NCBI RefSeq assembly: GCF_900104305.1
Contig: NZ_FNJC01000002.1
Span: 496,001 to 560,000, forward strand
Length of the DNA: 64,000 bases
From: Filomicrobium insigne
GTDB taxonomy: Bacteria > Pseudomonadota > Alphaproteobacteria > Rhizobiales > Hyphomicrobiaceae
Direction: 5' to 3'
Shown: one piece after another, positions 49,202 through 50,271 of the stretch
Layout of the letters: every line of letters begins with the position of its first letter
Position numbering within the stretch: position 1 is the stretch's first letter
Position numbers and translations under genes: made by a program
Notes under the pieces: generated by a model
Told to the model about the DNA's origin: nothing
Seen by the model: the letters and a program-made list of their open reading frames with translations, nothing else
Databases searched by the model: none

Positions 49202-50113
49202 TCAATTAACCTGACAGGTTTCCTCGTACTTACGGCAGGCATTACCATTGCCCTTATTGCATTGAGCCTGCCAGGTTTTGCAGCCCGGCTTCTTCCATGG
49301 TTCTACCTCAAAGCCCTGCTTGTCCTGACGCCAGACGCATTTGCCATTCCGCAGCTGGTAGCCTTTCTTGCAATAGCAATCACCCTCCGCACTGCGATAA
49401 GCGTTCTTTCCGCAATTCTGGAGCAGCACACACTCACCGTTCCGGAGTTTGTAGTTCTTGCCGCACACGAGGGGCTTCTTCTTTGCCTCCGTCGGCTTGG
49501 CTCTTGGCGGTGTTGAAGGCTTTGGGTTATCCGCATCGAGACGGAACAACTCTACCGTGGCCGGCTCGGCTGCAGGCAGGAAGATCTGCAGACAGTCTCC
49601 CGGACCGGTGGCGACCATCCAGGGATGAGTGCGATACGTATCGAACGTAATTTGCTCGCCGGGGTTCAGGCCGCCGTAGTCCTGCAGATTGCCCTCGAAG
49701 TCGATCCACAGGAAGGCGCGATACATCCCGGACTTGTTGACGAATGTGATCTTGGTTGGCTCGCTGGAGCTTTGCGAGCGCAACTCCGCGCGCTCAGAAC
49801 ATTGGCGTTCGGACGCTTTACCTGACGACACGACGGGGACGGTGGCGGGTTCCGACTGCCCGCCCATCTTCTTCAAGTAAGCGCGCGCCATATCGGCATA
49901 GAAGCCTGTCGGGTAGCTTGCTAGGAACGCGTTCCAGGCATCTGCCGTACCAAGCTCCTTAGCGACTTCGAATGCTTCTTTCGCGGCAACGGCGTCCGCA
50001 TCCTGCGCAAACGCCGAACCGCGACCCAAATCCTGGCCTGCGCTCCAGGGCTGAGAAACCATCGCTGAAAAAAACAGCAGGAACAAAACAGAACGCGAGA
50101 AAAACCACTGCAT
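49202..50113 (-). CDS. Secreted protein with VHL-beta-like domain and Cys-rich tail
   Basis: A 303-residue secreted protein. The signal peptide is within 1-36 (cut near AFA/QD). Residues 40-84 form a helical repeat (EAFEVAKELGTADAWNAF and YADMARAYLKKM). Residues 110-180 align with the beta domain of the von Hippel-Lindau tumour suppressor without gaps from W136 to W165: W136, Y146, T159, H163 and W165 correspond to human W88, Y98, S111, H115 and W117 of the hydroxyproline pocket. A Pro/Lys linker leads to a Cys-rich tail (215-303) with two LRNGxCV repeats. Bacterial VHL-beta-domain proteins occur in alphaproteobacteria; their ligand is unknown. Confidence 0.85.
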   Translation of the reverse strand: MQWFFSRSVLFLLFFSAMVSQPWSAGQDLGRGSAFAQDADAVAAKEAFEVAKELGTADAWNAFLASYPTGFYADMARAYLKKMGGQSEPATVPVVSSGKASERQCSERAELRSQSSSEPTKITFVNKSGMYRAFLWIDFEGNLQDYGGLNPGEQITFDTYRTHPWMVATGPGDCLQIFLPAAEPATVELFRLDADNPKPSTPPRAKPTEAKKKPLVCGKNYKLRNGECVLLQNCGKNAYRSAEGDCYCKKGYQLRNGKCVWRQDKQGFEVEPWKKPGCKTWQAQCNKGNGNACRKYEETCQVN

Positions 50114-50271
50114 TATTGAATATCCTGACTATGGCCACGCCATATGTGACCATAGTCAGCATAAGAACGATCAACAACGCGGTGGTGTCTCCACAGCATC
50201 GTCGACGAACTCATTTTCGCAAAAAATTCCCGAAAGGGGTGCCTTCAATCCGTTCGCACGTTCGTTGCTGA

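Follow-up and report, generated by a model that had tools for sequence, protein, structure and literature searches.

A predicted secreted protein of Filomicrobium insigne with a VHL beta domain and a pVHL-type pocket conserved among bacterial relatives

What could a bacterial protein bind with a pocket that, in human pVHL, recognises hydroxyproline? The question was raised by a gene of Filomicrobium insigne that lies within a window of 64,000 nucleotides, meaning the whole stretch of contig NZ_FNJC01000002.1 that was analysed. To our knowledge, the hydroxyproline pocket of VHL is usually discussed solely for animals and HIF. The gene and the regions of its product were assigned as follows.

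49202-50113, minus strand: gene for a 303-residue, probably secreted protein with a VHL beta domain; ATG start, homologues in relatives 62-67% identical
50123-50126, minus strand: AGGA, probable ribosome-binding site, 9 bases 5' of the ATG, read directly from the sequence
50003-50113, minus strand: predicted signal peptide region, residues 1-37, with a hydrophobic core at about 8-19 and a possible AFA-Q site in the hydropathy profile
49865-49981, minus strand: N-terminal segment AFEVAKELGTADAWNAFLASYPTGFYADMARAYLKKM, residues 45-83, probably a helical hairpin, delimited by comparison with several homologues that share it
49544-49801, minus strand: VHL beta domain with its framing cysteines, residues 105-190 (Pfam match 111-167), from Pfam, phmmer against the PDB and the PDB matches of the structure model
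49214-49465, minus strand: Cys-rich C-terminal tail, residues 217-300, with 10 cysteines and two LRNGxCV motifs in the translation

The first-pass annotation had described a secreted protein with a signal peptide. The hydropathy profile agreed with this description, showing a strongly hydrophobic stretch at the N-terminus followed by the possible cleavage site, and the protein is very probably exported from the cytoplasm. The Cys-rich tail and its two LRNGxCV repeats, also part of that description, were both found in the translation. Besides the 10 tail cysteines, the protein holds two that frame the VHL domain. In the nearest named relative, from a Hyphomicrobium MAG (L018), one of the two motifs is degenerate. 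The tail matched none of the Pfam and NCBIfam families searched, and an NCBIfam scan of the whole protein gave no match. Further copies of the N-terminal segment or the tail were not detected in the F. insigne genome at E<=0.001.

The VHL-like beta domain was recovered by an HMM search. Pfam VHL (PF01847) matched residues 111-167 with an E-value of 3.8e-10 and 40.1 bits, above the cut-off of 21, and was the sole Pfam domain reported in the protein. In a phmmer search against all PDB sequences, the 24 significant matches were all pVHL (best E 1.6e-6), and the sole remaining match listed had an E-value of 0.15. Residues 106-168 aligned with pVHL without gaps in this search. An ungapped alignment had previously been proposed for residues 110-180; this holds over the pocket, but the ungapped match ends near residue 168. 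An AlphaFold model calculated with a single homologue (L018) in the alignment was all-beta at low to moderate confidence (pLDDT 59), and a trimmed version gave a poor model (pLDDT 42). All 50 PDB matches listed for the pLDDT 59 model were pVHL or pVHL complexes, with a best E-value of 4.2e-5 and query TM values of 0.53-0.66. Structure searches in a viral library gave no match at E<=0.001. As far as comparisons of this kind reach, the assignment of the VHL beta domain is secure.

Five residues of the domain correspond to the pocket of pVHL. They are listed with their conservation in 84 bacterial domains, which comprised 81 distinct domains from 81 loci and three plasmid-borne ones, mostly from Hyphomicrobiales and including two from cyanobacteria.

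49706-49708, minus strand: W136, corresponding to pocket residue W88 of pVHL; W in 84/84
49676-49678, minus strand: Y146, corresponding to pocket residue Y98; Y in 60/84 (61 if a single Y98/N115 domain is counted)
49637-49639, minus strand: T159, corresponding to pocket residue S111; S or T in 83/84 (73 T, 10 S)
49625-49627, minus strand: H163, corresponding to pocket residue H115; H in 82/84
49619-49621, minus strand: W165, corresponding to pocket and core residue W117; W in 78/84, Phe in the rest

The match of these five residues, as originally proposed, was seen in the translation. Ser to Thr had been named as the only change. This is correct within the five, but nearby HIF contacts differ as well, with N67 replaced by S, R69 by S, R107 by I, P99 by G, I109 by F and H110 by D. 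Thr in place of Ser is a conservative exchange, but puts an extra methyl group inside the tight pocket. The hydroxyproline site of pVHL is formed by W88, Y98, H110, S111, H115 and W117; the hydroxyl is hydrogen-bonded by S111 and H115, the carbonyl bonded by Y98 and the amide by the backbone of H110 (review of VHL ligands, PMC9528729). Among animals, hardly any variation occurs at W88, Y98, I109, S111, H115 and W117 (PMC6650433). Compared with human pVHL (1LM8, 4AJY, 4AWJ), the window protein is alike in its beta domain, with 34% identity over 59 ungapped columns, and in the five pocket residues with Thr for Ser111. It differs in that it would be exported, is framed by cysteines, has no alpha domain that could be found and probably stands outside the ubiquitin pathway, and in that most HIF-flanking contacts outside the pocket are changed.

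Of 398 genomes sampled from the same order, 65 carried PF01847, spread over 33 of 141 genera; of 399 genomes sampled across the phylum, seven did. Thus, the domain is patchily distributed and enriched in this order. Plasmid-borne members were found in Nostoc sp. C057, with the hornwort Phaeoceros given as its source, Calothrix sp. NIES-4101 and Jannaschia sp. W003 (L082:3929-4291, L083:3944-4285 and L084:3635-4267). The cyanobacterial plasmid genes adjoin an integrase or resolvase gene; the Jannaschia gene directly follows a large gene with a VWD domain. Phage or viral carriage of the VHL gene was considered and rejected, with no match in phage records and no homologue in viral contig scans.

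Across the family, the pocket columns ranked among the best conserved of the 59 columns. W88 was in position 1, H115 in position 3, W117 in position 5-6 and S/T111 in position 7-8 at every redundancy cut-off, while Y98 ranked 14-19. The conservation of the pocket columns was significant, with Mann-Whitney p-values of 1e-4 to 1e-3 when kinship is ignored. The full pentad was present in 59-60 of the 84 domains and was intact in two stand-alone cyanobacterial domains, whereas Y98 was absent in 24 of the 84, across whole lineages. The pocket had been called mostly conserved in the window protein, and the column ranks extend this description to the family. Beyond the pocket, the HIF-peptide contacts N67, R69 and R107 were variable in bacterial domains; F91 and Y112 were mostly still aromatic.

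Two cysteines frame the domain.

49799-49801, minus strand: C105, conserved cysteine ahead of the domain; a cysteine at most 15 residues upstream in 78/81, invariant or nearly so
49592-49594, minus strand: C174 in the motif GPGDC, conserved cysteine past the domain; 80/81

They probably form a C105-C174 disulfide, which has no counterpart in pVHL and probably suits an oxidising compartment. The Elongin C-binding alpha domain was absent from the Pfam scan of the window protein, in which the beta domain alone was reported. With no alpha domain and a Cys-rich tail as the remainder, a role as ubiquitin (E3) ligase is unlikely.

Since the ligand-pocket residues are among the best preserved of the domain across bacteria, the protein is probably an extracellular binding module. 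In the reading that we favour with moderate confidence, it is an exported, disulfide-clamped VHL module whose pVHL-type pocket holds a small cyclic group, with no part in ubiquitin ligation. After export from the cytoplasm, the VHL beta domain, probably clamped by C105-C174, would act as the ligand-binding module. W136, Y146, T159, H163 and W165 would grip this group, for which a peptide's prolyl or 4-hydroxyprolyl residue, or else a ring of similar shape, is the most plausible candidate. Binding would take place within the envelope or extracellularly, and the regions on either side of the module (N-terminal segment, Cys-rich tail) may place or present it. The loss of Y98, the changed HIF contacts, the exchange of Ser for Thr, the lack of co-occurrence and of a telling neighbour described below, and the low confidence of the model were counted against this reading.

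The same five residues might instead be conserved for the beta-sandwich alone, leaving the bacterial domain with no functional pocket. W117 is part of the F76-W117-F119-F136 aromatic core of pVHL (PMC3688787), so its conservation alone is no argument for a ligand and may in part be structural. N78, G93 and F76, presumably conserved for structural reasons, reach about the same level as the pocket residues. However, S111 and H115 contact the ligand in pVHL, and no part of theirs in packing the core is known to us; their retention as bonders of the hydroxyproline hydroxyl was therefore counted for a ligand pocket. Y98 and W117 can also be lost jointly while the domain persists. All six domains that lack W117 also lack Y98 (Fisher 3.3e-4, relatedness ignored), and the losses of W117 required five changes on a tree of limited resolution. 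In three two-domain proteins (L041:1-2034, L060:2758-4017 and L073:2638-3606), one copy had an intact pentad and just the other had lost positions 98 and 117. The joint loss and these intact/degenerate pairs suggest a binding site that decays as a unit rather than a requirement of the fold. This pattern speaks for a working pocket rather than for a mere need of the fold and makes a functional ligand pocket in the bacterial domain likely, as judged from the alignments; conservation for the fold alone is accordingly unlikely in our estimate. A further explanation, which is possible at somewhat below even chances, is that the ligand of the pocket is neither proline nor hydroxyproline and that the domain serves as an envelope-protection or surface module for peptidoglycan, a glycan or an attacking enzyme of the lysozyme type. 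Among 78 proteins scanned, VHL domains were fused to MliC (4), LprI (3), SH3_3 (3), RicinB (1) and CVNH (1) domains, some of these matches lying below the Pfam cut-off. Such lysozyme-inhibitor, lectin and SH3 fusions suggest a function tied to the envelope or to lysozyme. The predominance of Thr over Ser at position 111 in bacterial domains, and the lack of association with hydroxylases or hydroxyproline epimerases, would also fit a different ligand. Against this explanation, the fusions are a minority and belong partly to one clade (MliC in f41), the window protein has none of these partner domains, and S/T111 and H115 are retained almost everywhere. LprI and MliC proteins resemble the window protein in being extracytoplasmic and in being fused to VHL domains in some homologues; they differ in that they are separate domains, neither of which was found in the window protein by Pfam.

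Hydroxyproline itself was considered with two co-occurrence tests over the 398 genomes of the order. P4H-type oxygenases (PF13640) were encoded by 28 of the 65 VHL-bearing genomes and by 125 of the 333 others, showing no association (p 0.41). The proline racemase/hydroxyproline 2-epimerase family (PF05544), taken as a sign of hydroxyproline scavenging, was likewise not associated, with 35 of 65 genomes compared to 180 of 333 (p 1.0), and it was absent from the F. insigne genome. Gene neighbourhoods of the VHL loci contained no recurrent partner with a function that names a ligand. These null results give no support for hydroxyproline, yet they are compatible with hydroxyproline from a host or the environment. 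It is very improbable that the bacterium reads hydroxyproline formed by a hydroxylase of its own, in the manner of an extracytoplasmic PHD-HIF-VHL pair. The F. insigne genome does encode two 2OG oxygenases that match PF13640, but these are a PKHD/PiuC-type dioxygenase and a protein with only weak resemblance to a cyclophane-peptide oxygenase. Furthermore, 37 genomes with VHL had no PF13640 match, and no oxygenase was among the recurrent neighbour families listed. For the small cyclic group held by the exported module, hydroxyproline is the best single guess, tentative and outweighed in probability by the remaining ligands combined. A broader proposal is more doubtful still: that, above all in Hyphomicrobiales, secreted, disulfide-clamped VHL domains read hydroxyproline proteins of plant, algal or animal walls and matrices independently of ubiquitin, possibly predating animal oxygen sensing.

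Bacterial members of PF01847 were known before, among them one secreted member (PMC9002001), and the first-pass annotation was right that the family exists in databases; it knew of no described function. Pfam holds a bacterial branch, and no description of a function was found for it. The secreted member, EMK97_00595 of Litorilituus sediminis, is alike in combining secretion with a bacterial VHL beta domain (PF01847), and its function is not established in the passages of PMC9002001 that concern it. Those passages propose a tumour-suppressor role by analogy and contain no analysis of the pocket or the family. Added here are the family-wide conservation of the pocket, the cysteines on both sides of the domain, the proteins that pair an intact with a degenerate copy, and the lack of association in the co-occurrence tests. 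If the pocket is selected in secreted bacterial proteins without HIF, ubiquitin or a linked hydroxylase, its recognition chemistry exists beyond oxygen sensing. The bacterial domain is small and maybe stabilised by a disulfide, and would be a testable binder of hydroxyproline or hydroxyproline-like groups. It is also a possible clue to the origin of the VHL domain.

Several observations were made on the surroundings of the domain in other homologues. In the three close relatives L018, L008 and L035, the VHL gene directly precedes dxs; in F. insigne it occupies another place, with dxs about 230 kb away. LprI and MliC are lysozyme-inhibitor domains from two unrelated families. The LprI fusions were L004, L015 and L016 and the MliC fusions were L021 and other f41 proteins, some of the fusion proteins also carrying SH3_3. 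A recurrent domain without a Pfam match, marked by a V/IPETD motif together with a conserved cysteine, was often located N-terminal to VHL (L003, L010, L012, L015, L020, L024, L040, L055 and others). A second recurrent partner region adjoining VHL, with a conserved W followed by yC and then W, was present in L029, L030, L033, L046, L047, L009 and L060.
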